Virus record (IMG/VR): IMGVR_UViG_3300044621_001904 | Coordinates: 1 to 24,039 of that record | DNA: 24,039 nt | Origin: a virus | Reading direction: 5' to 3' (one strand) | Shown: positions 2,665 through 24,039 of the stretch, piece after piece | Position numbering within the stretch: position 1 is the stretch's first letter | Layout: each line of letters opens with the position of its first letter | Program-made: the position numbers and the translations under genes | Notes under the pieces: model-generated | What the model was told of the DNA's origin: nothing | Seen by the model: the letters and a program-made list of their open reading frames with translations, nothing else | Database searches by the model: none

Positions 2665-2940
2665 ATGGCTTATTCGTTCGAGCAGCCTACTCGTGCCGCT
2701 GGTAAAACCAAAACCGAGTACATGGCTGAGGGCATGTCTGAGCAGGAAGCTCAGGACTTGGTTGATTCCCAGATGACCCGCAAGTATGGCGGTGGCATGT
2801 CCGATGCTGAGCTTCAGGATTTCGAAGCACTCATCGGTCGTCTCGAAAGCTCCAAGATGCGTCAGGCTGGTCAAGCCAATCGCGCACGTCAACGTGATGT
2901 GTTTGCTGGTGGCCTTGCCAGCATGATGGGCAACTTCTGA
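2665..2940 (+). CDS. Small charged helical phage protein, 91 aa
   Basis: Begins at ATG 2665 and ends with TGA 2938-2940. The sequence is highly charged and helix-forming (MSEQEAQDLVDSQMTRKYGG, then DAELQDFEALIGRLESSKMR) and finishes with a small hydrophobic tail, GGLASMMGNF. That ending resembles the SIMGAFNF ending of the preceding protein, and RQAGQANRARQR echoes the RQAGETER segment there. No family is recognised. It opens a run of six very short genes leading to the large terminase. Possible roles include an internal virion peptide or assembly factor. It has no signal peptide or membrane segment. Confidence 0.7.
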   Translation: MAYSFEQPTRAAGKTKTEYMAEGMSEQEAQDLVDSQMTRKYGGGMSDAELQDFEALIGRLESSKMRQAGQANRARQRDVFAGGLASMMGNF

Positions 2941-2941
2941 T

Positions 2942-3112
2942 ATGCAGGAGTCTTCTTCCGAGGCTTCTGCGGATTTAGGACGTTATCGTCAAGCGGCTGA
3001 TGTTGCGTACAAATACGCCAAAAGCCGCTTGAATACAAAAGAGAAGCCAGGTGCCCTGGACAAAGAAGAAACAGATGTTAAAGAAAACATCAAGCAAATA
3101 GAAAGACAATGA
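2942..3112 (+). CDS. Small charged protein, 56 aa
   Basis: ATG 2942 follows the previous stop by one base, and the frame runs 56 codons to TGA 3110-3112, overlapping the next ATG (3109) by 4 nt in the classic ATGA arrangement. The product starts MQESSSEASADLGRY and is rich in Lys, Glu, Asp and Ala, with a probable amphipathic helix (RYRQAADVAYKYAKSRL). The tight coupling on both sides supports translation. No function is recognised. Confidence 0.6.
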   Translation: MQESSSEASADLGRYRQAADVAYKYAKSRLNTKEKPGALDKEETDVKENIKQIERQ

Positions 3113-3393
3113 CAGAAGACGATTTCTATTGGGAGAATCCGGAGAACCCGGATCCGTATGATCTTCTGTTCGATGAAGATAAGGCACGTAAAGCCGCCGC
3201 AGCTGTTAAGATTTTCCAAGATGTTTCCGTTGGTTCCTCAAAAGAAAAGATGAGGACCGCTGGAGAGCAGGAACGCGCAACCATTGGAGAGAGCGGTGAA
3301 CAGCAAAGAAAGTCTGCGGAACAAGCCCAGCGTTTCTCGGAAAGCGACGAAGCCCGAGATTACGCTCAGTCCCAAAGAGCGTATCGATATTGA
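3109..3393 (+). CDS. Acidic then Gln/Glu-rich helical protein, 94 aa
   Basis: Starts at ATG 3109, overlapping the upstream stop by 4 nt. The N terminus is strongly acidic (MTEDDFYWENPENPDPYDLL). The rest is a charged helix with a repeat-like stretch RTAGEQERATIGESGEQQRK. That AGEQER-type pattern is reminiscent, from memory, of repeated segments in some phage internal virion or fibre-stalk proteins. The last ~98 nt overlap the following gene in another frame. The function is unknown. A fragment of, or accessory to, an elongated helical virion protein is one possibility. Confidence 0.6.
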   Translation: MTEDDFYWENPENPDPYDLLFDEDKARKAAAAVKIFQDVSVGSSKEKMRTAGEQERATIGESGEQQRKSAEQAQRFSESDEARDYAQSQRAYRY

Positions 3394-3880
3394 GGTATTC
3401 GACCAGTGGGTCGATAACCTAGATGCACCGACTGAGCAGGCATTCAGAGCTTTCTGCGCTGAAAATTATTCCGTTATCGAGTGTTATCTATACGCTCGCT
3501 TTTTGCGTTACAGCGGTTGCATCACCGGCTGTGACCTTTGGTTACAACAGAACTATCCCAAGCCTGATCACCGCAAAGTTCTGTTGCGTGAAATCGAAGA
3601 GATGCAGGAAGATATCCGGAAACTCAGGGTTGATGTTGATGAAGGTATTGTGAAACGCGATGCGGGTGTTGCGCGTATTGCTGGTATGCAAAAAGAATTA
3701 CGCGGAACAATTGCACAGGTTGAACAATTCACTGGAAACAAAGATCGCAAGGGTTTACTGATGGCAGGAGCAGATCGCGCCATTCGTGAACTTCTTACCA
3801 TCTTCAAAGATGATCCCATTGAAGTCCCCCTGGAAGAAGCATCAATGAGCGTTTGGTCTCACATGCAAATGGAAGAATAG
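3296..3880 (+). CDS. Coiled-coil protein; possible small terminase subunit
   Basis: The frame is open from TTG 3284. I place the start at GTG 3296, giving 194 aa, because GGAGAG at 3286-3291 lies just upstream. No later start precedes the conserved-looking part. The N-terminal half (from FDQWVDNLDAPTEQAFRAF) is helical with aromatic and Cys residues. The middle is a strong coiled coil (LLREIEEMQEDIRKLRVDVD, continuing through AGMQKELRGTIAQVEQF). The C terminus is acidic. A helical head, a central coiled coil and a location two genes before the large terminase fit a small terminase (DNA recognition for packaging), but I cannot see a clear helix-turn-helix. Treat this as a tentative call. It overlaps the upstream gene out of frame by about 98 nt. 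Confidence 0.65.
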   Translation: MNSKESLRNKPSVSRKATKPEITLSPKERIDIEVFDQWVDNLDAPTEQAFRAFCAENYSVIECYLYARFLRYSGCITGCDLWLQQNYPKPDHRKVLLREIEEMQEDIRKLRVDVDEGIVKRDAGVARIAGMQKELRGTIAQVEQFTGNKDRKGLLMAGADRAIRELLTIFKDDPIEVPLEEASMSVWSHMQMEE

Positions 3881-3898
3881 ATAACTTAAACTGAATAT

Positions 3899-4096
3899 AT
3901 GCAAAAACCACCACCGCAACCACCGCAATACGGTGAAAATATTGCAGGTCGTCTTTTTGATGTTGTGCGCCAACTTCAAAAGAATCGAGAGATGGCCGCT
4001 GGCGTGCGTCGCCCCACACCCTTGGCACAAAATGTCCCCCGTGGCCAAGAAGTCATGAATGCTTTAATGCAAAATAAAGAAAATGGCAAAAAATAA
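3899..4096 (+). CDS. Small Pro/Gln-rich protein, 65 aa
   Basis: ATG 3899 to TAA 4094-4096. The N terminus is a proline run (MQKPPPQPPQYGENI), followed by an amphipathic helix (LFDVVRQLQKNREMAAGVRR) and a basic end. Gap sequence 3881-3898 is short and A/T-rich, and the next gene begins inside this one (ATG 4083). No family is recognised. Its location just upstream of the terminase suggests a packaging or virion accessory, without further support. Confidence 0.55.
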   Translation: MQKPPPQPPQYGENIAGRLFDVVRQLQKNREMAAGVRRPTPLAQNVPRGQEVMNALMQNKENGKK

Positions 4097-4247
4097 AATG
4101 CCGCCACAACTCCTGGCACACTTCAAAAAGAAAGAAGCCAAGAACGAAGATGGCAGCGATATGAATGATAAAGAAAAAAGGAAAGCAGCCTTAGATAAAG
4201 CACGCAAGTACAAAGAACAGAAACAGAACAAAGCAGACAAAGAATAG
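4083..4247 (+). CDS. Very basic small protein, 54 aa
   Basis: Opens at ATG 4083, overlapping the previous gene by 14 nt in another frame, and ends at TAG 4245-4247. About a third of its residues are Lys or Arg (e.g. FKKKEAKNEDGS, EKRKAALDKARKYKEQKQNK). The sequence predicts a single charged helix. High positive charge would allow nucleic-acid binding, but composition alone cannot establish this. It ends 35 nt before the large terminase start. Confidence 0.5.
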   Translation: MAKNKMPPQLLAHFKKKEAKNEDGSDMNDKEKRKAALDKARKYKEQKQNKADKE

Positions 4248-4249
4248 GG

Positions 4250-4273
4250 TAGTATTCAGTAATACACTGAATA
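4250..4273 (+). promoter_or_regulatory. TAGTAT hexamer overlapping an 8-bp inverted repeat ahead of the terminase
   Basis: TAGTAT (4250-4255) has the spacing seen for other putative -10 elements in this window. It overlaps a perfect inverted repeat, TATTCAGT (4253-4260) and ACTGAATA (4266-4273), with a 5-nt loop. The terminase GTG is at 4283. The repeat could be an operator or an mRNA 5' hairpin. It has no T-tract, so a terminator is unlikely. Confidence 0.4.
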
Positions 4274-4282
4274 AACGTAATC

Positions 4283-5809
4283 GTGCCTGCGTATCAACAT
4301 CTTGCATATCGCCGCAATGCTCAGGCTGCTGCTCGCAGGCAACAGATTCGTCCTCAGAAAGATATTGAGTCCCTAAAGAGGGCCAGGGAAGATTTTGGTT
4401 TCTTTTGTGAATACGTTGCAGATAAACCTCCGGCTGCACATCACAAAGAATGGCACCGTCACTTCGTAACAGAACAAGACAGCAGCTGCCTTCTAAAGAT
4501 TGCCGGACCCAACATTGACCTACTTGCACCACGGGGTTCTGCCAAGTCCACAATCTTGGGTTTGTTTACTGCATGGGCGATTGGTGTCCACACACAAGCC
4601 AAGAAACCACTACAGATTCTTTATCTCTCTTACACGGTTGATATTGCGCGTTCCAAATCGGCAACCATCAAACGTATCATTGAAAGCAAACGATACCAAG
4701 AAGTTTTCCCCACCGTACGTCTTTTAAAGAACGTCACCAGTAATGAGTACTGGTCCATTGACCACAAGTTTGCGGGCATTGATACCACAGGTGAAGAACA
4801 ATTTACGCTTTGCGCCGCAGGTCTCAAGGGCTCTGTGACATCTAAGCGTTCTCATCTGGTCATCATCGATGACGCCATCAAATCAGCAGCGGACATCTCA
4901 AACCCTGACATCCGCAAACAGATGCAGGACAACTGGAATGCGGTGATTGCACCAACTATGTTTGAAGGTGGACGAGCGATCTGTCTTGGAACGCGCTTCC
5001 GCCATGACGACATCCATTCCACAACTTTTAATCCACAAAACAACTGGATGCAAATTGTGCTTTCTGCAATCTTGAATGATCCCAAGACAGGGGATGAGGT
5101 GTCTTACTGGCCAGAGATGTGGTCGTTGGATTACTTGAAGGAAAAGAAACGGCAAGCACCCATTGCTTTTTCGTTCCAGTACATGAATCAGGTCGTACGC
5201 CAAAACGAATTATCGCTGGCGCCTGAACTGATTGTAAAAGCTGAGATCGCAACAGAATTTGATACGTTGGCTGTTGGGGTTGATCTATCTGCTGGCACTA
5301 AAGAGAAAAACGATTACACGGTGATGGTCTTGGGTGGTCGCATTGATGATCGTATTCATGTCATCGATTACCGCCGGTTGCGTGTTATGGGCAACTTGGA
5401 GAAACTTGATGCGTTGAAGGAATTGTTGAACGACTGGTCAATCCTCGGAAAAGATGAGAGTGGTAATTACTTCCCCACCTATTCCACCTGTGACATTTAC
5501 TCGGAGGCAGTGCAGTACCAAGCATCGCTAGAAGCCGACTTTAAACGCGTTTGCCTAAACAATGAAAACTTATACAACTTGAACTGGCATCCTGTCAAAG
5601 GATTCCGAGCGGACAAGCTGGCACGTTTCCGTGGTTGCATGGGTCTTTTTGAAGACCGCAAGATTATCTTTAATCGTTACCGCAACTTCACAGCAATGTT
5701 TGAAGAGCTGACTAACTTTGGTGTTAGCAGTCATGACGACTGTGTTGATGCTTTGGTCTGGATGATTAACGGATTAATGCGAAAAGGAAAGTTACAACTT
5801 GATTACTAG
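4283..5809 (+). CDS. terL: Phage terminase, large subunit (ATPase and nuclease)
   Basis: 508 aa from GTG 4283. The large terminase is the packaging motor: it powers DNA into the prohead and cuts it. The ATPase domain shows a P-loop of the APRGSAKST type at residues 82-90, in which Ala replaces the Gly before Lys. The Walker B-like stretch is HLVIIDD (191-197), followed by the motif CLGTRFRHDD (234-243). The C-terminal RNase-H-like nuclease shows acidic residues in VGVDLS (Asp334), CDIYSEA (Asp404/Glu408 region) and SHDDCVDALVW (Asp485, Asp486, Asp489). Length and order match the terminase type with fused ATPase and nuclease. No Shine-Dalgarno is evident ahead of the GTG. The stop (5807-5809) is immediately followed by a palindrome. 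Confidence 0.95.
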   Translation: MPAYQHLAYRRNAQAAARRQQIRPQKDIESLKRAREDFGFFCEYVADKPPAAHHKEWHRHFVTEQDSSCLLKIAGPNIDLLAPRGSAKSTILGLFTAWAIGVHTQAKKPLQILYLSYTVDIARSKSATIKRIIESKRYQEVFPTVRLLKNVTSNEYWSIDHKFAGIDTTGEEQFTLCAAGLKGSVTSKRSHLVIIDDAIKSAADISNPDIRKQMQDNWNAVIAPTMFEGGRAICLGTRFRHDDIHSTTFNPQNNWMQIVLSAILNDPKTGDEVSYWPEMWSLDYLKEKKRQAPIAFSFQYMNQVVRQNELSLAPELIVKAEIATEFDTLAVGVDLSAGTKEKNDYTVMVLGGRIDDRIHVIDYRRLRVMGNLEKLDALKELLNDWSILGKDESGNYFPTYSTCDIYSEAVQYQASLEADFKRVCLNNENLYNLNWHPVKGFRADKLARFRGCMGLFEDRKIIFNRYRNFTAMFEELTNFGVSSHDDCVDALVWMINGLMRKGKLQLDY

Positions 5810-6881: not shown

Positions 6882-9155
6882 ATGGCTGACGCAAAGGCCC
6901 GGCTCCAAGAAATCATCAATGCTTACCTGGATAAGGACAGTGACATTGTTGTAGACACGGGCATTGTCGCGTCTCACGTTGCACAGATGAAACTCTTTGG
7001 CATTCGCCAAGGTGTTGAATTTTTCCCCTCCCAAGACAACTTCGGTGCACAACGCAAAGATTTTCTCGACAGGGTACTGAAGTACAACAAGATGGATACC
7101 CGGTTGGATTCCATCTGGGAATACTTCTTGTGTGACGGTAAAGGACTTTTTTATATTCGTCCCACCAAGCAAAGTTATCGTCTTTACTATTTCCGCGAAC
7201 ACGAATATCGTGCTTACTACAACGTAGACGGTGAGCTGGATGAGGTGGTAATCATCTACAGCTATAAAGTCCGCAGAGGCAATGGCTTTGGTGACCAGCT
7301 AAACACAACGAACTTGACAGGTTCAACCAGTACTTATAGCCCTGGTGCAAAACGTTATATCCGTTTATCGATCAAAGCAAAAGAAATTGAAGAGACGCAT
7401 TCCGACTCTGAATTGAATTTTGACATGCCAACGTATGCCTTGACGGGCAATACAAAGCAGTTAAAAAACAGTCTTGGTTTTATTCCCTGTGTTGAGATCA
7501 TCAACAACACCCAAGGTTTTTCAAACGAAGGCTGCGGTGAGTTTGATGGTTTAGCCAATCACATCTGTACGCATGACGAATTGATGCGGACGATGCGGAA
7601 GAACATTACATTCTTCGGTAACCCGACGCTTCTTTCGTCCCGTCCAAAGACCGACTTGATGGAAGCCGGTGGTGACATGGCGGTTCAGCGTCCGTCAATC
7701 GCAGCCAACTCTGGTTTTACCAGCCCTGCCGCCTTGAGTCGTTCAACGTTCAAGGCTGATCCAGTTAGTCGTGGTATCGACGGTCAGATCCGTGTACCAA
7801 GAGTCATTGCAAACCTGGAACCAAACGACCGTGTTGGTTATATTGTCCCAGATGCAATCACTGGTGACCAAAACGCATTTGCACGTCAATACCGTGAAGA
7901 AATTCGTACGGCACTAGGTGGTGTTGACGAACTATCTATTTCTGCAGGCGTTACTGCAACTGAGTACAAATCTTTGTTTGGACGTGTTGCTGCCACATCT
8001 AAAAAGAAAGCAAATGCAATTTATACACATGGCATTTGTCGTTGCCTTGAGTTAATCATTTACCAAGAAGAACAGCTGTTCAAGACAACTCTTGCAATGG
8101 CTGCAGGTCTTGAAAAACCTGTGGATCTCGACGCCAGTGCCACCCCTGAAGATGAGGCGGCATATGAAGAGGCAATGCAGCAATACAATGATCAACTCAA
8201 AAATCTTATGATGGCTTGTGTGGAGACACAACAAATTCCGCCCAAAGTCATTGGCTTAATTCCAGACGGAGATCTCACTGTTTTATGGCGTTGGATGGGT
8301 CCTGTTTATGAGGACTCAACTCAAGACATCCTCAACAACTCCATCGTGGTGCGAAACCTCCAGGAGTTAGGTGTTGATAGCATTGAAGCACTGAAATACC
8401 TCTTTCCGTCTAAGACGGACGAGGAAAGGGCCGAGATGTTATCTGGGTTCCCATTCAGGATGGTGAACGAATTACAGGGTGCATACTCTCAATTCGCTCG
8501 CTTAGTGGGGGGAATGATGCAGACTCCTCACCCGCAAGCACCGGATCTTCCGATGGCTGCGGATCCAAGATTGGACTTAACTCCATATCTGTATCGAACA
8601 TTAGAAGCTCTACAAAAGGAGATGAGTTATGCAGGACGCTACCGTCCAATCGATCCCACAGACGAGCCAAGCACCAGTGGCGGTGGCTCCCAGCAGCTAC
8701 GTGGTACCGGCCCAAGCTCCGGCACCTCAGGCTCCAGTGGCGTATCAAGTGGGTACCAGCTACCCCCAGGCGATTCCGCAGGCGGCCCCCAGCTACCAAT
8801 CAGCCCCTACTCAGTACGCCCCCCAATCCCAACCGGAAGCAGCGAGCAATCCCTGGGAATCGGCGTTCAACAAGGTGGTGAACCTGCTGAGCAGTCCAGT
8901 TCAATCCCCGTTCCAGGGTCAGTCCTCACCGACGACGCAGTACGCACCAGCCAATTACGGCCAGCAGTACAGCAGCCCAGCTACGCAACAATCGGCTCCG
9001 CAGACCTGGTCACCCAACCAGACCTCCTCGCCCAGCTCTTCCCAAACCTACTCAGTTCAATCCTTGGCGGACGTGGCGGATCTGCTCCAGTGGAGTCCGG
9101 AAACACGTCACGTCGTCGAAGCGTACGGAACCGAAGCACCCGCAATTCTAAATAA
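6882..9155 (+). CDS. Phage portal (head-tail connector) protein
   Basis: 757 aa from ATG 6882. Portals form the dodecameric ring through which DNA enters and leaves the capsid. The call rests on size, place between terminase and scaffold/capsid genes, and portal-like segments. These include an N-terminal mixed alpha/beta region, a basic/polar middle around AFARQYREEIRTALGGVDEL and a long helical stem and crown (ILNNSIVVRNLQELGVDSIE). The folded part seems to end near residue 585, close to the size of T7-type portals (about 540 aa). Residues 583-757 are a low-complexity Gly/Ser/Pro/Gln tail ending in an Arg-rich stretch. That tail is entirely within the out-of-frame overlap with the scaffold gene, so it may be a late extension produced by loss of a stop. 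Confidence 0.85.
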   Translation: MADAKARLQEIINAYLDKDSDIVVDTGIVASHVAQMKLFGIRQGVEFFPSQDNFGAQRKDFLDRVLKYNKMDTRLDSIWEYFLCDGKGLFYIRPTKQSYRLYYFREHEYRAYYNVDGELDEVVIIYSYKVRRGNGFGDQLNTTNLTGSTSTYSPGAKRYIRLSIKAKEIEETHSDSELNFDMPTYALTGNTKQLKNSLGFIPCVEIINNTQGFSNEGCGEFDGLANHICTHDELMRTMRKNITFFGNPTLLSSRPKTDLMEAGGDMAVQRPSIAANSGFTSPAALSRSTFKADPVSRGIDGQIRVPRVIANLEPNDRVGYIVPDAITGDQNAFARQYREEIRTALGGVDELSISAGVTATEYKSLFGRVAATSKKKANAIYTHGICRCLELIIYQEEQLFKTTLAMAAGLEKPVDLDASATPEDEAAYEEAMQQYNDQLKNLMMACVETQQIPPKVIGLIPDGDLTVLWRWMGPVYEDSTQDILNNSIVVRNLQELGVDSIEALKYLFPSKTDEERAEMLSGFPFRMVNELQGAYSQFARLVGGMMQTPHPQAPDLPMAADPRLDLTPYLYRTLEALQKEMSYAGRYRPIDPTDEPSTSGGGSQQLRGTGPSSGTSGSSGVSSGYQLPPGDSAGGPQLPISPYSVRPPIPTGSSEQSLGIGVQQGGEPAEQSSSIPVPGSVLTDDAVRTSQLRPAVQQPSYATIGSADLVTQPDLLAQLFPNLLSSILGGRGGSAPVESGNTSRRRSVRNRSTRNSK

Positions 9156-10193: not shown

Positions 10194-11357
10194 GTGTTCA
10201 TTGATAACGACTTTCCAAAGATTCTTGGTGCGGAACTTTACCGTCCCCACCCTGCTTACATTGCTGAGATGGCAGTGGAGCCCGTGGTTGTCCACGACTT
10301 CACCCGTCAGCCTGGTCAGACCGTTCAGTTAGATCGCTACAAGTTCTGGGGTACCCCTGGTACGAAGGACAGCCGTGAGCGTATTGCCGATCAAACCATC
10401 GGTACCGCCAACAGCCGCAACATCACCAAAGAGAAGGTGCTTGTTGTGCTGAAAGAGTACACCGGCCCTGCAGATCCGGGTGATCCGACCCAGCCTTCGA
10501 CCTTCAAGATTGCACGTGAGACCCTGATCACTGCCCAGCGCCTTCTGCTGGATAGTGGCAACCTCAACATGTTCCACCAGTCGATCGGCAGCTTGACTCT
10601 GCTCGACGACTATCGCCGTTGGCGTGATCGCGTGTTCATTGATGAACTCGCCAAAGCTGAAGCCAATGGTGCCGCTTCTACCACCCAAGGTGGTTACTAC
10701 TTCCCTGGTGGTAAGACCAAAGATTCCTCCGGTCGTGTTTCCTACAGCACGCAGGAGTATGGCAATGAAGTGCAGCAGTTCCAGGTTCGTACCGACCTGC
10801 TGACCATTGTTAAGGATCTCCGCAAGCGCAACGTTCCGACCTTCGCTGATGGTCTGTATCGTTGCATCTGCGATCCCACCTTCATGATGCACCTGCGTCG
10901 TGATCCCGACTTCCGTGAGATCGCTCGTTACGCTGGTAACCCTGGCCAAGGCATGTACATGGGCAACCCCATGATGCCTAACAACGCCAGCTTCTACATG
11001 GGTCCCCAGGCTGGCCAAGGCTACTTCCTGGCTGGCGAACCCGTGATGCCTACTGGCGTCCAGTTTGAAGGCGTTAAGTTCTTCGAGTCGACTAACTTCC
11101 CGACCAAGAACGTTACCGCTTCTTTCGACGGTGGCTCTGCTTATGCTTCCAAGGAAGTGGCCCAAGGTTACTTCTTTGGTCCTCAGTCGATTGGTGTTGG
11201 TATCGGCGGCCCGAACGCTCAGGTGCTGATCAACAACAACGACGATTTCAGCCGCTTCATCATTCTGATTTGGCAACTGTACGCTGGCTTCGAAATCCTG
11301 AACAAGGACTTCGTTACCACTGCTTACAGCTTCGTTCAGGACGACGGCACCGTCTGA
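10194..11357 (+). CDS. Major capsid protein
   Basis: 387 aa from GTG 10194, with a strong GGAGGA ribosome site 9 nt upstream. It is called major capsid protein from its position directly after portal and scaffold, its size, and its codon use. Codons are those of a highly expressed gene (CTG, GGT, CGT, AAC and TTC preferred), unlike the A/T-ending codons of its neighbours. The sequence shows a mixed alpha/beta composition: an N-terminal arm (MFIDNDFPKILGAELYRPHP), an extended-loop-like region with YKFWGTPGTKDSRERIADQT, helical segments (ITAQRLLLDSGNLNMF, LDDYRRWRDRVFIDELAKAE) and a C-terminal domain. This is compatible with an HK97-like shell protein. Tandem stops TGA-TAA close the gene. The next gene begins 35 nt on with its own ribosome site. 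Confidence 0.85.
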   Translation: MFIDNDFPKILGAELYRPHPAYIAEMAVEPVVVHDFTRQPGQTVQLDRYKFWGTPGTKDSRERIADQTIGTANSRNITKEKVLVVLKEYTGPADPGDPTQPSTFKIARETLITAQRLLLDSGNLNMFHQSIGSLTLLDDYRRWRDRVFIDELAKAEANGAASTTQGGYYFPGGKTKDSSGRVSYSTQEYGNEVQQFQVRTDLLTIVKDLRKRNVPTFADGLYRCICDPTFMMHLRRDPDFREIARYAGNPGQGMYMGNPMMPNNASFYMGPQAGQGYFLAGEPVMPTGVQFEGVKFFESTNFPTKNVTASFDGGSAYASKEVAQGYFFGPQSIGVGIGGPNAQVLINNNDDFSRFIILIWQLYAGFEILNKDFVTTAYSFVQDDGTV

Positions 11358-12216: not shown

Positions 12217-12645
12217 ATGTCAACGACTGCGGCAATGCTTTATCAGCACAAAAAAACAGGCGCAAGAGTAAAGATTGTAAGCGAATGGGATAACGGCGAT
12301 TGGTTCATGGTCGAAGATCAGGACGGTCGCCTTTATACCGCTTACAAAACTGAACTCACGCCCGATGAAGCGGCAACAAAAACTGTTAAGACGCTTCAGG
12401 TAAAAGATAAAGCAGCGCAAGAGGAACCGCGCACTTTCCCCCCGGACAACCGTTTAAATATCAATTCAGCTACCGCCCAAATGATCGCTGATCATATTAA
12501 GGGTATTGGATTGAAAACAGCCCGAGAGATTAAAGATCTTCAGATGTCCTTATCGGGTGAAAGGTTCAACAATCTCGAACAGTTAAAGCAAATTAAAAGG
12601 GTTGATTGGGACGCAGTTCTGGCAGCTGATTTAATCAGAGTTTGA
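12217..12645 (+). CDS. SH3-like plus helix-hairpin-helix (ComEA-type) protein
   Basis: 142 aa from ATG 12217, directly after a hairpin and without a visible ribosome site. Residues ~8-50 look like a small beta barrel (YQHKKTGARVKIVSEWDNGD, then VEDQDGRLYTAYKTELTP), of SH3/KOW type. After a charged linker, residues ~78-142 match the ComEA-like helix-hairpin-helix pair: RLNINSATAQMIADHIKGIG, then TAREIKD and RFNNLEQLKQIKRV. In known proteins that module binds DNA backbones non-specifically. Here it lies among virion genes, so it could contact packaged DNA at the neck or have become a purely structural module. The gene is followed by the clear terminator at 12665. Confidence 0.8.
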   Translation: MSTTAAMLYQHKKTGARVKIVSEWDNGDWFMVEDQDGRLYTAYKTELTPDEAATKTVKTLQVKDKAAQEEPRTFPPDNRLNINSATAQMIADHIKGIGLKTAREIKDLQMSLSGERFNNLEQLKQIKRVDWDAVLAADLIRV

Positions 12646-12664
12646 TTAGGCATCAATTTAATCA

Positions 12665-12692
12665 CCCCTGGGAAACCAGGGGTTTTTGTTTT
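12665..12692 (+). terminator. Intrinsic terminator
   Basis: CCCCTGG (12665-12671) and CCAGGGG (12676-12682) form a perfect 7-bp GC-rich stem with a GAAA tetraloop, followed by TTTTTGTTTT. This is the only textbook intrinsic terminator in the window. It ends the transcript that carries the helix-hairpin-helix gene. Confidence 0.9.
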
Positions 12693-12697
12693 AAAAT
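12692..12697 (+). promoter_or_regulatory. Putative -10 element (TAAAAT) fused to the terminator tail
   Basis: TAAAAT begins at the last T of the terminator tract, and the next ATG is at 12704, only 6 nt beyond the hexamer. If used as a -10, transcription would begin at or next to the start codon, giving a leaderless mRNA for the peptidase gene. Confidence 0.4.
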
Positions 12698-12703
12698 GTA
12701 GAT

Positions 12704-13369
12704 ATGGCAAACATAACAAGAGTAGGACAACTTGGTTCCACGGGCATTTCTTCCGGCCCGCATCTACATGCCATTGTCAAAAATCTTGAAACAGGCGAAT
12801 ATGAAGATCCTGGCATTCATCGCAGCAAATTTTTAAATGTACGAATAGGGCCAAATCGCGTTCCCAAATATATTGACGATGGCAAAGGCGGGTTGATGTT
12901 AAACCCCGCAGCAGGTCTCGTAATGACTTCTGGTTGGGGTCCACGAGATACGGGAATTGCAGGGGCAAGCAAATATCACAGGGGAAGAGATTATGCAGGT
13001 AAAGAAGGAACAGAGATTTTTGTAGAGGGTGACGTTAAATTTACACCACGTCCCAATGCGGGAGGCTATGGCAACTTAGCCACCTGGACCACGCCAGACC
13101 AAAAATATGAGCTTGGCTATGGCCACATGAAAACATTGGGTGAAGCATCTGATCTAACGGGTGGAAAAGTTGCGGACCCATCAGGCGCTGGAAGTGATCC
13201 CAAGGAGTTTTTATTGGGTTACCTTATGGGTACTGGCTTTACAGGTCAGTCAAAAGAAAGCGAAGGAACTAAGATGAAACGGGCATTGGTACAGCAGTTA
13301 CTGCAACCACAGGAAGACAATACGTTCTCTCAACTTCTTGCAATGCTTCCCAATCCATATGTTGGTTAA
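12704..13369 (+). CDS. M23-type metallopeptidase with circularly permuted motifs
   Basis: 221 aa from ATG 12704. M23 (LytM-type) enzymes are zinc endopeptidases that cut peptidoglycan cross-bridges. All hallmark residues are present but out of order. The normally C-terminal motif comes first: GSTGISSGPHLHAIV at residues 11-25 (His20, His22). The normally N-terminal part follows: TSGWGPRD (75-82), HRGRDYAG with His92 and Asp96, GGYGNLATW (120-128), then YGHM with His141. The C-terminal tail (about 185-221) is a Leu-rich helix ending LLQPQ...LLAMLPNPYVG, resembling the end of the lysozyme at 14923. There is no signal peptide. A virion-associated role in local wall opening at entry fits the structural neighbourhood. 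Upstream is a terminator, so a missing N-terminal domain is unlikely. Confidence 0.85.
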   Translation: MANITRVGQLGSTGISSGPHLHAIVKNLETGEYEDPGIHRSKFLNVRIGPNRVPKYIDDGKGGLMLNPAAGLVMTSGWGPRDTGIAGASKYHRGRDYAGKEGTEIFVEGDVKFTPRPNAGGYGNLATWTTPDQKYELGYGHMKTLGEASDLTGGKVADPSGAGSDPKEFLLGYLMGTGFTGQSKESEGTKMKRALVQQLLQPQEDNTFSQLLAMLPNPYVG

Positions 13370-13408: not shown

Positions 13409-13870
13409 GTGCAGCTCAGCGATTTTGACAAAAGTAGAGTCCGGTATCATCTGGGCTACTTCACGGTTTCCGTGCCAGCGGGTGACTACGCTCGTCTGGA
13501 AGAAGCCATGAATACCGTTCCGGATTCATATTTCTATGACAAAATCGTGATTCAGATTGGTCGTTGTGATACGGCTGAGAAGAAGACAGAGGTTGCAACA
13601 TCGCCTTCCACCAGGCTTGAAAATATTGCTGGTGACGTGGATCGTACGATTCGCTCCAGCAATGCCAAAGAAGCCCTCAAGGTTTGGGACGAGATTTATC
13701 TCTACGAAACCAACCGTTTAGCTGGCATCCTTTACGTTCCTAACTACAAGGATCCATTCCAGGCTCGTTACCGTTACGAACGCTCTGGTGCTGAATTTAT
13801 CCAGGCATTACCTGGACCCGCCGACACTGCTGTTGGTTCTCGTATTTATTTACACACTGTCTGGAGGTAA
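13409..13870 (+). CDS. Probable head-tail adaptor/virion structural protein
   Basis: 153 aa from GTG 13409. The N terminus, MQLSDFDKSRVRYHLGY, and the later region (RLENIAGDVDRTIRSSNAKE, VWDEIYLYETNRLAGILYVP) recall small phage head-completion or head-tail adaptor proteins that begin with a short helix ahead of a helical bundle. Size and position downstream of the capsid gene agree. The C terminus (DTAVGSRIYLHTVWR) appears to be a strand. The assignment is from pattern and synteny only. The stop is 2 nt before the next ATG and TGGAGGT (13862-13868), inside the end of this gene, is that gene's ribosome site. Confidence 0.7.
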   Translation: MQLSDFDKSRVRYHLGYFTVSVPAGDYARLEEAMNTVPDSYFYDKIVIQIGRCDTAEKKTEVATSPSTRLENIAGDVDRTIRSSNAKEALKVWDEIYLYETNRLAGILYVPNYKDPFQARYRYERSGAEFIQALPGPADTAVGSRIYLHTVWR

Positions 13871-14922: not shown

Positions 14923-15612
14923 ATGACAGAACGCGAATTACTTGAAAGCTACCTCCAAAAACCGTTCCTGCAAAAGGCGTTAAAGACGATTCGTTTTGCA
15001 GAAGGAACCGAGCGTGGTGGCCCAGATTCTTATCGCGTTATGTTTGGTGGGGGCCTTGCACCTAATTTGCAACGTCACCCAGATAAAGTCATTCGTGGTA
15101 GTGCCGCCGCTGGTGCCTATCAGTTCCTCCCAGGAACATGGCAAGCACACGCCAAAGCACTAAACCTGTCTGATTTTGGTCCGCAAAACCAAGATCTTGC
15201 AGCTGCTCGTGGTATCCGCAATCGGTTAATGCCTCTTGGCGGCCTTGCTATCTTGGAAAAGGAAGGCCTAAGTCCTCGTGTATCTGCTGCTTTAGCACCT
15301 GAGTGGGCTTCATTCCCCACTGAAAGTGGCCGCAGTTATTACGGACAACCTGTTAAAAAACTTTCTGAACTTCAAAAAGTTTTTGGCCAGGATGTCACAC
15401 CGCCTTCTCCTGATCAAGCCAAAACTGGCAAGGGAGATGAAGTGTCTTCTTCCGGTTTCCTTGAAGGATTTATCGCAGCAATGTCTGGCGGTAAACCCAA
15501 AGAGTTAACTGTTCAAGACCTAATCAAGCAAGAGTTAATGGCACAGTTATTAACACCCAAAGCGCCGTCATTACCGCTTGACATCTTGCCTGGTATTAAC
15601 CTCTACGGTTAA
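14923..15612 (+). CDS. Lambda R-type lysozyme (lytic transglycosylase)
   Basis: 229 aa from ATG 14923. Residues ~18-150 match the lambda endolysin family, which cleaves the glycan strand of peptidoglycan. The catalytic Glu is Glu27 in IRFAEGTERGG, followed by YRVMFGGGL, HPDKVIRGSAAAGAYQFLPG, LNLSDFGPQNQDLAA and EWASFP. The lambda enzyme is 158 aa, so this protein carries an extra ~75-residue C-terminal tail. That tail has a Ser/Gly-rich linker, then VQDLIKQELMAQLLTPK and a final LPGINLYG, resembling the tail of the M23-type enzyme at 12704. The tail and structural context suggest a virion-associated hydrolase instead of, or besides, a lysis endolysin. No signal peptide is present. Confidence 0.9.
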   Translation: MTERELLESYLQKPFLQKALKTIRFAEGTERGGPDSYRVMFGGGLAPNLQRHPDKVIRGSAAAGAYQFLPGTWQAHAKALNLSDFGPQNQDLAAARGIRNRLMPLGGLAILEKEGLSPRVSAALAPEWASFPTESGRSYYGQPVKKLSELQKVFGQDVTPPSPDQAKTGKGDEVSSSGFLEGFIAAMSGGKPKELTVQDLIKQELMAQLLTPKAPSLPLDILPGINLYG

Positions 15613-18115: not shown

Positions 18116-19366
18116 ATGCTGCTGCTGACTTCTACAACTGATGTAGTAAAAGTTGTTGCGTCTGCCAGCACTCAACTGGAAGTTCACGCGTCATATGTTG
18201 ATAATGCTGCGGGGGTTGTAACTCCTGGGCGTCAAAATTCCACGATCACAACAAGTGGCACGTCCACAATCATTACGGCACCAGCAGCAGACGTACAAAG
18301 AAACGTCCGTACGTTATTTATCCGCAATGATCACGCCACACTTTCGAATACATTAAGTGTTGAGCATGATAATGGCACGGTTGTTTCTACCATTTGGTAC
18401 GGAACCTTAGGTGCCAGAGAAGAGGTTGTTCTCAGTCAAGAAGGCACCTGGCACTCTTATGACCCACTTGGGTTAGAAAAGAATTACAACATGATTGGGG
18501 CAACAGGCCCCCAGGGTGATCCCGGCGGACCAACCGGTGTTACAGGCGCAACAGGCCCACAAGGAACCACAGGTCCAACAGGTCCTCAAGGTGTGACTGG
18601 CCCCACCGGTCCACAAGGTGTTACAGGTGTTACGGGACCACAAGGAACCACGGGTCCAACAGGTCCTCAAGGCACGACTGGTCCTACCGGTCCTCAGGGA
18701 ACTACAGGTCCCACTGGCGCACAAGGTACGACTGGTCCCACAGGTCCACAAGGAACTACGGGTCCCACAGGTCCTCAGGGGACAACAGGTCCTACTGGAC
18801 CCCAAGGCACAACTGGCCCCACTGGAGTTACCGGTCCTCAAGGCGCAACAGGTCTTCAGGGAACCACAGGTCCCACTGGTGCACAAGGCACAACTGGCCC
18901 CACTGGAGCTGATGGACCTACTGGTGTCACAGGTCCTCAGGGAACCACAGGTCCCACTGGTCCCCAAGGAACTACCGGTCCTACGGGAGTTACTGGTCCA
19001 CAAGGTGCCACGGGTCCTACAGGCCCACAAGGAACCACTGGACCTACCGGAGTTGATGGCCCTACCGGAGTTACGGGACCAACTGGTCCACAAGGTACGA
19101 CGGGTCCTACAGGTCCCCAGGGAACCACCGGACCTACCGGTCCTCAAGGTGCGACCGGACCTACGGGTCCACAGGGAACTACAGGTCCTACAGGCCCCCA
19201 AGGTACGACGGGTCCTACGGGAGTTGATGGCCCCACTGGAGTTACAGGCCCCTCAGGTGCTACTGGCCCCACTGGGCCGACCGGACCCACTGGCCCCACT
19301 GGACCCCAGGGACCAACTGGTGCAAACAGTGACATTCACGTTGTTATCGCCGCTATGATGTTCTAA
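18116..19366 (+). CDS. Collagen-like phage fibre protein
   Basis: 416 aa from ATG 18116. Residues 1-127 form a beta-rich head ([37 protein letters not shown]), likely the virion attachment module. Residues 128-401 are about 91 Gly-X-Y triplets with a single extra Gly near GDPGGPTG, built mainly on the nine-residue unit GPTGPQGTT. The C terminus is short and hydrophobic ([12 protein letters not shown]). Such repeats form a trimeric triple helix, so the product should be a thin rod on the virion. The Y position is mostly Thr or Gln, with no need for hydroxyproline. The stop overlaps the next ATG by 1 nt. A glycosyltransferase gene lies downstream, which may act on the Thr residues (inference). 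Confidence 0.9.
18497..19318 (+). repeat. Collagen-coding tandem repeats (27-nt unit)
   Basis: The Gly-X-Y region is about 822 nt of 9-nt and 27-nt periodic sequence. Units differ mostly at synonymous third positions (GGT/GGA/GGC, ACT/ACA/ACC/ACG), so the protein repeat is kept while the DNA is diversified. The periodicity leaves several other frames open, which explains spurious antisense ORFs there. Confidence 0.9.
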
Positions 19367-19725
19367 TGGCTGCTCCAAATCTTAAATCCCCTACGACAAT
19401 TACGGGTAAGACAGCAAGATATGCTGTAACTGCTTCGCTTGCCGCTGCGTTGAGCAATTCAGCCGCAAGTAATAAAGTGCTGAAAATTAACAGTATTTTT
19501 TGCGCCAATGTGGATGGTGTCAACTCTGCTGATATCAGCATTTCCATTTACAACGGAACAACCGATTTTTATATCGCTAAAACAATTAACGTTCCAGCAG
19601 ATGCGACGCAGATGCTGAGCACAAAAGAAACGTATTTCTACTTGGAAGAAGGTGATTCCATTCGTGCGTTGGCATCTGCCGCAAACGATTTGGAATTGAT
19701 AATTGCATACGAGGAGATCAGCTAA
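19366..19725 (+). CDS. Small beta-sandwich fibre module
   Basis: 119 aa from ATG 19366, overlapping the collagen stop by 1 nt and itself overlapping the next ATG by 1 nt. The pattern (KVLKINSIFCANVDGVNSAD, ISIYNGTTDFYIAKTINVPA, YFYLEEGDSIRALASAANDL) is the small jelly-roll-like module frequent in cyanophage structural clusters. Its general layout resembles the N-terminal head of the collagen-like protein. It may cap or attach a fibre. The fold is an estimate from strand pattern. GAGGAG at 19712-19717 in its end serves the next gene. Confidence 0.7.
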   Translation: MAAPNLKSPTTITGKTARYAVTASLAAALSNSAASNKVLKINSIFCANVDGVNSADISISIYNGTTDFYIAKTINVPADATQMLSTKETYFYLEEGDSIRALASAANDLELIIAYEEIS

Positions 19726-22148
19726 TGCGTTTGGGATTGATGGGTGGAACAGACAGTAAGCGCACATCTGGTGTGTATAAACCAGATGATGTTACTGAGT
19801 TGCAAGACGCCAAAAAATACATTAGTTGCTTTGGTTATGACGGTGTTTTCAATGCCTTGAGTAGTTCTGGTATTGAAGAAGGTTTTGATGTTAGCCGCGA
19901 TGGTCGATACGTTTATGTTGCTGTACGTGGTACGCGAACTACTGCCACCATTTTTCAGTACGAATGCACAACGCCTTGGGATCTCTCAACCATTGTTTAT
20001 TCCAGTAAGAGTTTGGTAGTCGGTGACTACGACCTTAACTGTAACGGAATTGCAATTAGCAATGACGGCACTCGTTTGTTTTTCACGGGGTACGGTGGAG
20101 ATGCTGTATGGTCTTGCACGCTTTCTACGCCTTACGACCTAGCAACAGCAACGGTTGATGTTAAAAAGTTTTATGCAGGCACGCAAGATGCCACACCACG
20201 CACACCCTTCTTTGGTGACAGTGGCACCAAAATGTACATCATGGGTGGCACAAATGATACCGTATACCAGTACACATTAAGCACGGCTTGGGACGTAAGC
20301 ACTGCTTCTTATGCCAATAAGAGTTTAAGCGTAACTACGCTAGACGCAACTCCGTTTGCTTTATTTTTTCGAGATAACGGAACAAAGCTGTATGTAATTG
20401 GCGGCACAAACGTCGTCATCCTTTCGTATACACTGTCTACCGCATGGGATATTTCAACTGCAACTGCAGATTATGTAGCAAAATCTTTCCTTGTATCAAG
20501 TCAGGCGACCATTCCCGTTGGCGTTGCTTTTGGTGACAGCGGCACCAAGATGTATGTTCTTGCTGGTGGATCAACAGCAACTGATACTGTTTTTCAATAC
20601 ACATTAAGCACAGCTTGGGATGTCACAACAGCTAGCTATGCAAGTAAAAGTGTAAGTGTCAACACTCAAGCAACTTTCTCTACAGATTTATTTTTCAAGG
20701 ATGATGGCACCAAGATGTACATCTTGAATGATGCTAATGATACGATCTTTCAATACAGCTTGTCAACGGCATGGGATGTCTCGACTGCAACTTATGATAC
20801 CGTTTCGTTTAGCGTAGCAGGCCAGGAAACTGCTCCCAATGGCTTATTCTTTGGTGACAGTGGCACCAAGATGTACGTCATTGGTACTACTGGCGATGAC
20901 GTTAATCAATATGCGCTTTCTACAGCATGGGATATTTCAACTGCATCATTCGTGAGAGTTTCTGCTGCCATTGGCGATACAGTTCCGGCAGGGATTTTCT
21001 TTTCGTCTTCGGGCGACCGGATGTTTGTGGTTGGACAAACTGGAGATACCGTAAGAGTTTTTAGTTTAAGTACAGCATGGGATGTGTCTACAATTTCATT
21101 CCTTGGATATTATTTTGCAGGCGATGCAACACCTCAAGGGATAGTCTTCAAGGATGATGGCACGGAGATGTACATTGTTGGAGACACCGCAGATCGTATT
21201 CTCCAGTATTCTCTTACGACTGCCTGGGAACCACGTTCAGTTACGGGTCGATATTTGGTCTTTGAACAAGAAACTGTTCCTACCGCTTTATTCTTTAAGC
21301 CAGACGGCACCAAGATGTATGTTACTGGTACTACTGGCGATGATGTAAACGAATACGATCTAAGCACCGCTTGGAATGTTAGTACCGCATCTTTTGTGCG
21401 TGTATCTGCAACGATTGGTGATACAACCCCTGCAGGGTTGTGGTTCAAGGATGATGGCACCAGGATGTATGTCATCGGACAAGGTAGTGACACAGTTAGG
21501 GAGTTTTCACTATCTACAGCCTGGAACGTATCAACAATTTCATTTGTACAAGCATTATCTGTTGGATTTGAAACTGCTCCTCTCGGAGTGACCTTCAAGG
21601 ATGACGGCACAGAACTTTATCTTGTTGGGTCTACAAACGATGTTGTATATGAAATCCAGCTTGGCACAGCTTGGAACATCAGCACGGCAAAAGGCTTTAT
21701 TTATGTAAGTGGCACAGAACCAGCCCCGCGTGGCATTCACATTAATAATGATGGTACGTTATTGTTTCTTGCGGGCGACGCGGATAACATTCGCAAGTAC
21801 ACATTAAGCACTGCTTATGAACTGGGCACGGCTACACTTTCGCAAAGCCTTGCTTTAACTGGATCATTGGGTGTTCATGTTTTTGCAGATGGTTTACGCA
21901 TTTATGCAACAACAGATTCCAGCAATACATCTCCCAATGGCGGTAGACAAGTGCGTCAAATCACCTTAACATCTCCCAATGATCTGACAACTGCCAGCAC
22001 TAGCTCTGTTGAGTTAATTCCATTGTATGGTTTTACCGGCACTGCAACAACTCCTTGGGGCATCCGCGTTTCCCCTGATGGCACGCGTATGTTTGTGCTA
22101 TCTGACGCCGTGCAGGGCCTGTATCAATTCTCATTGAGGTTTGCATGA
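19725..22148 (+). CDS. Beta-propeller repeat fibre protein, 807 aa
   Basis: ATG 19725 overlaps the upstream stop by 1 nt and has ribosome site GAGGAG. I count 15 copies of a ~48-57-residue unit. Each has F(F/K)DDGTKMYV(I/T)G followed by D.V.QY.LSTAWD(V/I)STAS. The DG-T-KMYV strand and tryptophan signature resemble NHL/YVTN-type propellers. Fifteen units exceed one propeller and suggest two seven-bladed rings plus one unit, or closure across the termini. Units 7-9 and 10-12 are a duplicated three-unit block. A surface-exposed receptor-binding or fibre-shaft role fits its place between the collagen fibre and the fibre accessory gene. Short divergent flanks lie at both ends. Confidence 0.85.
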   Translation: MRLGLMGGTDSKRTSGVYKPDDVTELQDAKKYISCFGYDGVFNALSSSGIEEGFDVSRDGRYVYVAVRGTRTTATIFQYECTTPWDLSTIVYSSKSLVVGDYDLNCNGIAISNDGTRLFFTGYGGDAVWSCTLSTPYDLATATVDVKKFYAGTQDATPRTPFFGDSGTKMYIMGGTNDTVYQYTLSTAWDVSTASYANKSLSVTTLDATPFALFFRDNGTKLYVIGGTNVVILSYTLSTAWDISTATADYVAKSFLVSSQATIPVGVAFGDSGTKMYVLAGGSTATDTVFQYTLSTAWDVTTASYASKSVSVNTQATFSTDLFFKDDGTKMYILNDANDTIFQYSLSTAWDVSTATYDTVSFSVAGQETAPNGLFFGDSGTKMYVIGTTGDDVNQYALSTAWDISTASFVRVSAAIGDTVPAGIFFSSSGDRMFVVGQTGDTVRVFSLSTAWDVSTISFLGYYFAGDATPQGIVFKDDGTEMYIVGDTADRILQYSLTTAWEPRSVTGRYLVFEQETVPTALFFKPDGTKMYVTGTTGDDVNEYDLSTAWNVSTASFVRVSATIGDTTPAGLWFKDDGTRMYVIGQGSDTVREFSLSTAWNVSTISFVQALSVGFETAPLGVTFKDDGTELYLVGSTNDVVYEIQLGTAWNISTAKGFIYVSGTEPAPRGIHINNDGTLLFLAGDADNIRKYTLSTAYELGTATLSQSLALTGSLGVHVFADGLRIYATTDSSNTSPNGGRQVRQITLTSPNDLTTASTSSVELIPLYGFTGTATTPWGIRVSPDGTRMFVLSDAVQGLYQFSLRFA
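20810..21700 (+). repeat. Tandem duplication of a three-blade block in the propeller gene
   Basis: Two ~444-nt blocks (about 20810-21255 and 21256-21700) encode parallel series: TTGDDVN(Q/E)Y, then SFVRVSA(A/T)IGDT(V/T)PAG, then ST(I)SF. Single-unit repeats elsewhere are more divergent, so the block was duplicated more recently. Confidence 0.7.
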
Positions 22149-22402: not shown

Positions 22403-22420
22403 CAACAGCTTTGGTTATTT

Positions 22421-22473
22421 GTATGCGTCTTCACCTTGTGGGAATTTTCCACACACAAGCAACAGACGCATAC
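22421..22473 (+). promoter_or_regulatory. Nested stem-loop enclosing a start codon
   Basis: GTATGCGTCT (22421-22430) pairs perfectly with AGACGCATAC (22464-22473). Inside, CTTGTG (22435-22440) can pair with CACAAG (22454-22459), with GG/CC beyond. The ATG of the glycosyltransferase (22423) lies in the left arm. No T-run follows. In mRNA this would hide the start codon. Confidence 0.6.
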
Positions 22474-24039
22474 TCTCACTGCGCCTTCACTGGGAAAGCT
22501 TTGCGGTTTCCCAAGATGATGGAGGCCAGAGGTTATCACGTCATTGAATACGCGAACGAAGGAAGTCAGGCCCAGGCAAGTGAGCATGTGACCATGCTTA
22601 CAACACAAGAATTTAATTCGTTCTATGGCAAACGAAAGTCAACAGATTTCCACGGAGACGATGCCTGCATTGGCAGCCCCGGCCATCAGTTATTTGAAGA
22701 ACGCTTGATTACCGAGCTTGGTAAACGACTGGAAAAAGAAGACATCATCTGCCATCCCTTTGGTCATGCACATCAAATTCTCACAGAAAAATTCCCCAAT
22801 CATCACCATGTCGAGACGGGGATTGGATACCCAACCTTAATGCCGAACAGTTTTAAGATCTACGAATCTTACGCCTGGATGCATTATCACCAGGGCAAAG
22901 AAAACAGGCAAGGAAAAAACTACGAATGGGTTGTCCCCAATTACTTTGACATTGACGATTGGAATCCAAATTACACACCAGGATCTTACCTTGCTTTCCT
23001 TGGTCGCATCTGCAGTGCCAAGGGAATGGACACATTATTTGAAATTGCCAAATACAGTCCATGGCCTATTGTCATCCATGGACAAGGAGATCCAACACCC
23101 TGGAGCCACCCCAACATTGAATACCGTGGACCCATTACAGGCAAAGCACGCTCTAAGTTTTTACGCAACGCAAGAGCCGCGTTAATGCCAACAAATTTTA
23201 CGGAACCTTTTGGTGGTAGTGGCGTCGAAGCAATGTTGTGTGGCACACCGTTAATCGCCGTTGATTACGGCGCGTTCACAGAAACGATTATTGACGGGGT
23301 CACTGGTTATCGCTGCCACACCCTGCAAGATTGGATTGACGCCATTGATAAAGTTGAAGATCTTAATCGTTATACCGTTGCAAAGATTGCACGATCCAGA
23401 TACAGCCTGGAAGCCTGCGGCAAGAAATACGACACAATTTTCAAGAGTATCAACAATCTTTGGCGAAACGGATGGTATCAACTAGATTCCACAGACATTA
23501 TCAATTACGATCAGATTGAAGAAGAGGAAGGGCCTTTTGCTAAACGTCTAGCGCATTGGATTAAAGATCAATTTGCTCCATATGATTTTGTATACGATCT
23601 TGGGTGCGGGCCAGGTACATACGTCAATGCTTTAAATAATATTGGCGTAGATGCTTTTGGTTATGACATTGACCCAAGAGTAGAAGATAAGCCAAATCTT
23701 ATATGTGCTGATCTTTTAAAACTTAACCCAACAACGCAAGCAGAACTTGTGTTATGTCTTGAGACAGCAGAACATATAGACTCAATGCACAACAAGGATA
23801 TTGTCAAAGCAATAGACAGGTGTTTAATGCATGGCGGCATGTTGATTTGGTCTGCTGCTCAACCAGGACAGGGAGGTGTTGGGCACATTAATTGTCAAAC
23901 AAAAGAATATTGGCATAAACTATTTCAGAAAAAAGGATTCTCACGAAATTACGGAGTAGAAAAAAGTTTGGTTGAAGATATGCGCACAGGTTATCATATG
24001 GGCTGGTTTGTGCAAAACGTTATGGTATTTATTAAGAAC
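22423..24039 (+). CDS. Glycosyltransferase-methyltransferase fusion (3' truncated)
   Basis: Open from ATG 22423 for 539 codons to the window edge with no stop. Residues ~1-345 are a GT-B-type, GT4-like glycosyltransferase: an N-terminal MRLHLVGIFHTQ, FLGRICSAKGMDTLF at 192-206 (the usual GR...KG pattern), and the donor-binding motif TEPFGGSGVEAMLCGTP with the E-x7-E pair Glu261/Glu269, then DYGAFTETIIDGVTGY. Residues ~380-539 are a class I S-adenosylmethionine methyltransferase, with motif I VYDLGCGPGTY (390-400) and the acidic GYDIDP after strand 2. The enzyme should transfer a sugar and methylate it or the acceptor. It follows the fibre genes, so a virion or host-surface glycan is the likely target (inference). 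There is no ribosome site, and a stem-loop covers the start. Confidence 0.88.
   Translation, partial: MRLHLVGIFHTQATDAYSHCAFTGKALRFPKMMEARGYHVIEYANEGSQAQASEHVTMLTTQEFNSFYGKRKSTDFHGDDACIGSPGHQLFEERLITELGKRLEKEDIICHPFGHAHQILTEKFPNHHHVETGIGYPTLMPNSFKIYESYAWMHYHQGKENRQGKNYEWVVPNYFDIDDWNPNYTPGSYLAFLGRICSAKGMDTLFEIAKYSPWPIVIHGQGDPTPWSHPNIEYRGPITGKARSKFLRNARAALMPTNFTEPFGGSGVEAMLCGTPLIAVDYGAFTETIIDGVTGYRCHTLQDWIDAIDKVEDLNRYTVAKIARSRYSLEACGKKYDTIFKSINNLWRNGWYQLDSTDIINYDQIEEEEGPFAKRLAHWIKDQFAPYDFVYDLGCGPGTYVNALNNIGVDAFGYDIDPRVEDKPNLICADLLKLNPTTQAELVLCLETAEHIDSMHNKDIVKAIDRCLMHGGMLIWSAAQPGQGGVGHINCQTKEYWHKLFQKKGFSRNYGVEKSLVEDMRTGYHMGWFVQNVMVFIKN

Follow-up and report, generated by a model that had tools for sequence, protein, structure and literature searches.

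M23 enzymes have a textbook fold and are a source of antibacterials. Among phages, M23 peptidases serve for entry, as with gp13 of phi29 and other virion-associated M23 lysins (PMC9662197). Natural circular permutation within a peptidoglycan-peptidase superfamily is on record for the NlpC/P60 enzymes (Xu et al. 2011, as cited in the preprint PMC12667903). The phrase 'circularly permuted endopeptidases' in that preprint was considered as an M23 precedent and set aside, as it refers to NlpC/P60. No permuted M23, LytM, lysostaphin or tape-measure peptidase turned up in a search of the open-access literature; an earlier report elsewhere is possible.

The DNA analysed here, called the window, is the full 24,039-nucleotide stretch of IMG/VR virus record IMGVR_UViG_3300044621_001904. 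One of its genes (Table 1) probably codes for a natural circular permutant of the M23 (LytM/lysostaphin-type) zinc peptidases which, docked on the virion, would cut the wall at genome entry. The conserved circular permutation of a known M23 fold is real; catalysis and placement are read from motifs, gene position and relatives.

Table 1. Features of the permuted M23 gene and its neighbours in the window.
Feature	Coordinates	Strand	Description and evidence
Permuted M23 gene	12704..13369	+	221 aa; half-domain profiles, Pfam, phmmer, homologues
B half, residues 1-27	12704..12784	+	GQ-IG strand, GSTG loop, HxH strand; profile, dN/dS, AF2 strands
His20-Leu21-His22 (HxH)	12761..12769	+	His20 catalytic-type, 22 the zinc-ligand position; sequence and alignment
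Linker, residues 28-72	12785..12919	+	Normal C-terminal end (DPxxx), helix, normal N-terminal strand; alignment, AF2
A half, residues 73-145	12920..13138	+	TSGWGPR, HRGRD, GGYGN, YGHM; half-domain profile, Pfam, phmmer
His92-xxx-Asp96	12977..12991	+	Zinc-ligand motif; alignment, invariant in 39 members
His141 (YGHM)	13124..13126	+	Second catalytic-type His; alignment, invariant in 39 members
C-terminal tail, about residues 151-221	13154..13366	+	Faster evolving, low pLDDT, common to replacement enzyme L247
Intrinsic terminator	12664..12691	+	12664-12683 plus T run; between upstream gene and permuted M23 gene, conserved in relatives
Upstream gene	12217..12645	+	Helix-hairpin-helix motif; syntenic in S-EIV1 and other relatives
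Downstream gene	13409..13870	+	phrog_29158; syntenic in relatives
Lysozyme/endolysin-like gene	14923..15612	+	phrog_90, phrog_17230; second predicted wall hydrolase of the cluster

Order of the M23 halves

A preliminary description, made from the window sequence, had placed the gene at 12704-13369 and claimed that the two halves of an M23 domain stand in swapped order with all zinc-ligand and catalytic positions surviving. His20, His22, His92, Asp96 and His141 were all found where it had put them in the window protein, and the swap was confirmed by half-domain profiles, by pieces of the Pfam match and by crossing phmmer matches. The motifs of the window protein are GSTGISSGPHLH (residues 11-22), SGWGPRD (76-82), HRGRD (92-96), GGYGN (120-124) and YGHM (139-142). 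Because these run in the order HxH, H-x3-D, YxH, and the collinear M23 order H-x3-D, YxH, HxH is not found, the protein is classed on its motifs as a permuted M23 variant and not as a standard family member.

M23 profiles were built from ordinary domains in three forms: the complete domain ('can'), a version rotated at the loop that follows YxH ('rot'), and the A and B halves on their own. On the window protein the A half scored 38.0 bits (residues 74-143) and the B half 23.5 bits (residues 6-26), while the best half-domain scores among shuffled controls (n=880) were 4.6 and 3.3 bits, respectively. Both M23 halves are statistically real. The Pfam M23 model (PF01551) matched the window protein in two stretches with 28.0 bits against a gathering cut-off of 28.7; it gave 41 bits on the relative L048 and no match on the S-EIV1 homologue. 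When PDB chains were searched with phmmer, 3slu, 6muk and 9m7n each received two crossing matches from the window protein, those to 3slu pairing query residues 60-156 with 214-310 and query residues 7-23 with 311-327.

The preliminary description had proposed that phage proteins be searched with the permuted order, and the swap was found in tape-measure proteins of other phages as well. In 17 Acinetobacter/Moraxella tape-measure proteins, where the linker is short, 'can' split into a crossing pair of matches, whereas 'rot' matched as a single domain (53-62 bits); on L320 the single 'rot' match gave 46 bits. As a control, held-out ordinary M23 proteins were recovered as one domain by 'can' in 37/37 cases and by 'rot' in 0/37. 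The long linker of the window-clade proteins breaks up the 'rot' match, and the pieces lie in rotated order. The permutation thus occurs in more phage lineages than the window sequence alone could reveal.

Predicted fold

AlphaFold2 (AF2) was run on an alignment of 39 members. The pLDDT was about 97 at residues 21-70 and mostly above 90 for residues 71-150, the tail was disordered, and strands were placed at residues 4-10 and 20-27. The pTM was 0.64. By simple calculation, pTM could not exceed 0.58 if residues 1-27 were unplaced, or 0.41 if residues 1-72 were unplaced; the observed value lies above both ceilings, and therefore AF2 treats residues 1-150 as one body. Judged by these confidence scores, the prediction supports a single confident folded unit over residues 1-150, in which the two segments, whose relative placement had been proposed as a check on the permutation, would lie together. 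Foldseek, which follows chain order, found no M23 structure in the PDB with the AF2 model, a result that fits the swapped order or a model inaccurate in detail. Its viral matches were A0A510E7V3, a tape-measure fragment (E 1.4e-6), and H6WFX6, a virion structural protein of S-TIM5.

In the fold we propose, the chain would start just before the normal GQ-IG...GSTG...HxH strands and pass through the normal C-terminal end. The linker of about 45 residues would then cross to the normal N terminus, and the chain would end after the strand that carries the YxH histidine. Folding should set His20 and His22 beside His92, Asp96 and His141, and so rebuild the usual one-zinc site.

Terminal strands are known to be exchanged between chains in some proteins, and a linker of this length would allow such domain swapping: the N-terminal HxH strand would complete the sheet of a second chain, and the active unit would be an intertwined dimer. 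We regard such a dimer as unlikely, since AF2 folds the monomer with confidence and since the tape-measure proteins, with their shorter linker, show the unit as one compact rotated domain in alignment.

Genome context, tail and proposed function

The window, a 24 kb virus record, carries a terminase (4283-5809), a portal-like gene (6882-9155), a major-head-like gene (10194-11357), the lysozyme-like gene and collagen-like fibre genes. The permuted M23 gene lies between the major-capsid gene and the lysozyme/fibre genes. At megablast sensitivity the only match of the window in the phage collection was Synechococcus phage S-EIV1, to which a quarter of the searched stretch aligned at about 78% DNA identity. 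Several other features of the window were recorded. A conserved TTTTAAAAT stretch at 12684-12703, between the terminator and the start codon and also 5' of homologues, is a possible phage promoter element. A unit of about 65 aa is present in three imperfect copies at 1715-2626 (SWxxFLxxINxxKGGVGLxAxxxAxGMGASxxxxNxFL), and a long GPT/GPQ repeat tract lies in a collagen-like fibre (18116-19366). The 807-aa product of 19725-22148 is propeller-like with repeated FFxDDGTKMYV...YxLSTAWDVSTA units, and a fusion of glycosyltransferase group 1 and methyltransferase domains (Pfam) at 22411-24039 is cut by the end of the record.

In L247, L239-L244 and L248 a different domain stands in place of the permuted M23 domain, and the C-terminal tail is kept. 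The neighbourhood of L247 agrees with that of the window gene for gene. Tail profiles trained on M23 proteins scored 104 bits on L247 and 108 on L244. The invariant His/Asp residues of the replacement domain are H33, H39, D46, H94, H97 and H99 (of A5), and from its motifs it resembles an M15-type peptidase; Foldseek against the PDB gave weak, non-significant matches to the Zn DD-peptidase 1lbu and the L-Ala-D-Glu endopeptidase ChiX 5opz. At the permuted-M23 locus this His/Asp-rich, peptidase-like domain with M15-like motifs and the same tail was seen at L247:3001-3639, in L239-L244 and in L248-L253.

The tail of the lysozyme gene is weakly like that of the M23 protein, with E values of 2e-4 in L247, 4e-6 in S-EIV1 and 0.03 in the window. 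The likeness was noted at the C-terminal end of window 14923-15612, at L016:10245-10904 and at L247:5168-5869. It suggests that the lysozyme and M23 tails may be a shared docking module, and the tail looks like a lineage-specific dock for differing wall-cutting domains. A degenerate C-terminal copy of the HxH motif was also sought in residues 146-221, where GGKVADPSGAGSDP is faintly alike; it is unconserved in relatives and was rejected.

The survival of the active-site residues held for His20, His92, Asp96 and His141, which are invariant in the alignment of 39 diverse members, down to about 25% identity. It did not hold for the whole HxH motif: the window and L048/L304 clades have His at position 22, but the S-EIV1 clade has Asp there and so reads HxD. 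Zinc binding in the S-EIV1 clade may differ, because Asp stands for the second histidine of HxH. Together with the PAHD that replaces xGxD in the H-x3-D motif of some members, this substitution lends some weight to the view that the permuted M23 fold persists in a non-catalytic role, either wall-binding or structural, as in degenerate LytM factors. Such a role is improbable for the window protein given that its clade and that of L048/L304 retain HxH, that the four other positions never vary among the 39 members, and that the same tail also carries a swapped-in domain rich in invariant His/Asp. Because another His/Asp-rich domain replaces M23 on that tail, hydrolysis is suggested as the needed property.

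The simplest and best reading is that the permuted M23 protein would be a virion-associated peptidoglycan endopeptidase. Conservation gives the predicted function good support, and the position of the gene, together with the relatives found within tape-measure and annotated virion proteins, suggests a virion location. The C-terminal tail would most likely dock the enzyme on the virion, and the enzyme would cleave peptide cross-links in the wall of the cyanobacterium at genome entry, alongside the lysozyme encoded about 1.5 kb downstream.

Integrity of the gene, spread and relation to known enzymes

The preliminary description had argued from a terminator just 5' of the gene that it has no missing front. 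The terminator was found and is kept in the related loci inspected. The window clade shares both the start codon and an upstream CCCCTGGGAAACCAGGGG-type terminator, and a stop followed by 1-3 in-frame codons precedes the conserved Met. Homologues in which an upstream frame gives the canonical order had been named as evidence that would overturn the permutation; among the homologues examined none has an upstream frame that supplies a canonical front half. The dN/dS ratio was approximately 0.055-0.06 for residues 1-27, 0.025-0.05 for the A half and 0.16 for the tail, all rough values with dS near saturation, and on these ratios the N-terminal segment appears to be under strong purifying selection. 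The HxH motif starts at most 11 residues from the start codon, as truncation would give, yet a truncated or rearranged pseudogene, its ordinary M23 front half lost or in another frame, is extremely improbable in the face of this selection, of the closed upstream frame, of dozens of IMG/VR relatives with B before A and many with the same start and order down to about 25% identity, of the lack of a second M23 on the contigs of six relatives (77 and 84 kb long in two cases), and of the recurrence of the B-A order within tape-measure proteins of other phages. Truncation, frameshift and an upstream exon are ruled out by the homologues.

As a stand-alone protein the permuted M23 is found in S-EIV1-like phages; no relatives of the cyanophage protein were found in bacterial genomes. 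Within tape-measure proteins it occurs in Acinetobacter and Moraxella phages and prophages, with 4/149 genomes of that bacterial family (Moraxellaceae) carrying it. In L320 it forms the C terminus of a 545-aa protein (2717-4351), the upstream part of which looks glucosaminidase-like by eye. Gp111 of the marine cyanomyovirus S-TIM5 (997 aa), the virion structural protein matched by Foldseek, has HxH at 538 and then HTGVD at 591, with weak profile scores. Before this unit, at residues ~431-467 of gp111 (L400:16128-19121), is a weak M23-like remnant (YVHQEY...VKEGDKVEIGQIIGSV), a possible duplication intermediate. Among the matches listed for 398 Pseudomonadota genomes, a strong span of the permuted model was seen in the Acinetobacter centre genome alone; six doubtful matches with long profile spans proved, when read, to be ordinary A-B M23 proteins.

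A tree was built from the A and B halves with 26 permuted rows. It groups the S-EIV1-type, Moraxellaceae and L320 members in a clade with support of 96/87, and 26/26 permuted rows fall to the same side of a branch that is itself weak (support 30/0). Because that branch is weak, a single origin of the permuted M23 domains is possible rather than demonstrated. The permutation may have arisen by tandem duplication, as the preliminary description had proposed. A broader reading, which we hold tentatively, is that one ancient permutation gave a phage-specific branch now used as a virion wall-cutting module in S-EIV1-like cyanophages, Moraxellaceae tape-measure proteins, S-TIM5 gp111 and a modular tail lysin, the new termini being suited to insertion into long structural proteins.

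Standard annotation overlooks the permutant: the window protein scores under the Pfam cut-off, its S-EIV1 homologue goes unmatched, and Foldseek misses solved M23 structures. Since cultured Acinetobacter phages and S-EIV1 carry the permutant, its activity and topology are directly testable.

The closest described proteins differ from the window protein in several ways. The S-EIV1 protein AHV82231 (KJ410740), annotated as M23, is syntenic, 26% identical and permuted in the same order; it has HLD for HLH and a longer C-terminal tail, and no record of its permutation was found. The tape-measure proteins of Acinetobacter Vieuvirus YMC11/11/R3177 (AJT61396) and Moraxella phage Mcat23 (AKI27967) contain the permuted unit as one compact domain; in proteins of this type it lies in mid-protein (~1,300-1,700 aa), with a shorter linker and HLD. 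The 2022 M23 review (PMC9662197), which covers lysins of the phi29 gp13 type, contains nothing on permutation. The permuted NlpC/P60 enzymes have a papain-like cysteine fold unrelated to M23. With M23/LytM enzymes (PF01551; 3slu, 6muk) the window protein has the motifs of both halves in common (phmmer E ~2e-6 to 3slu and 6muk). It differs from them in the swapped order of its halves and in the linker that leads from the normal C-terminal end back to the normal N terminus. The permutant is also a natural experiment on how the M23 fold tolerates moved termini.
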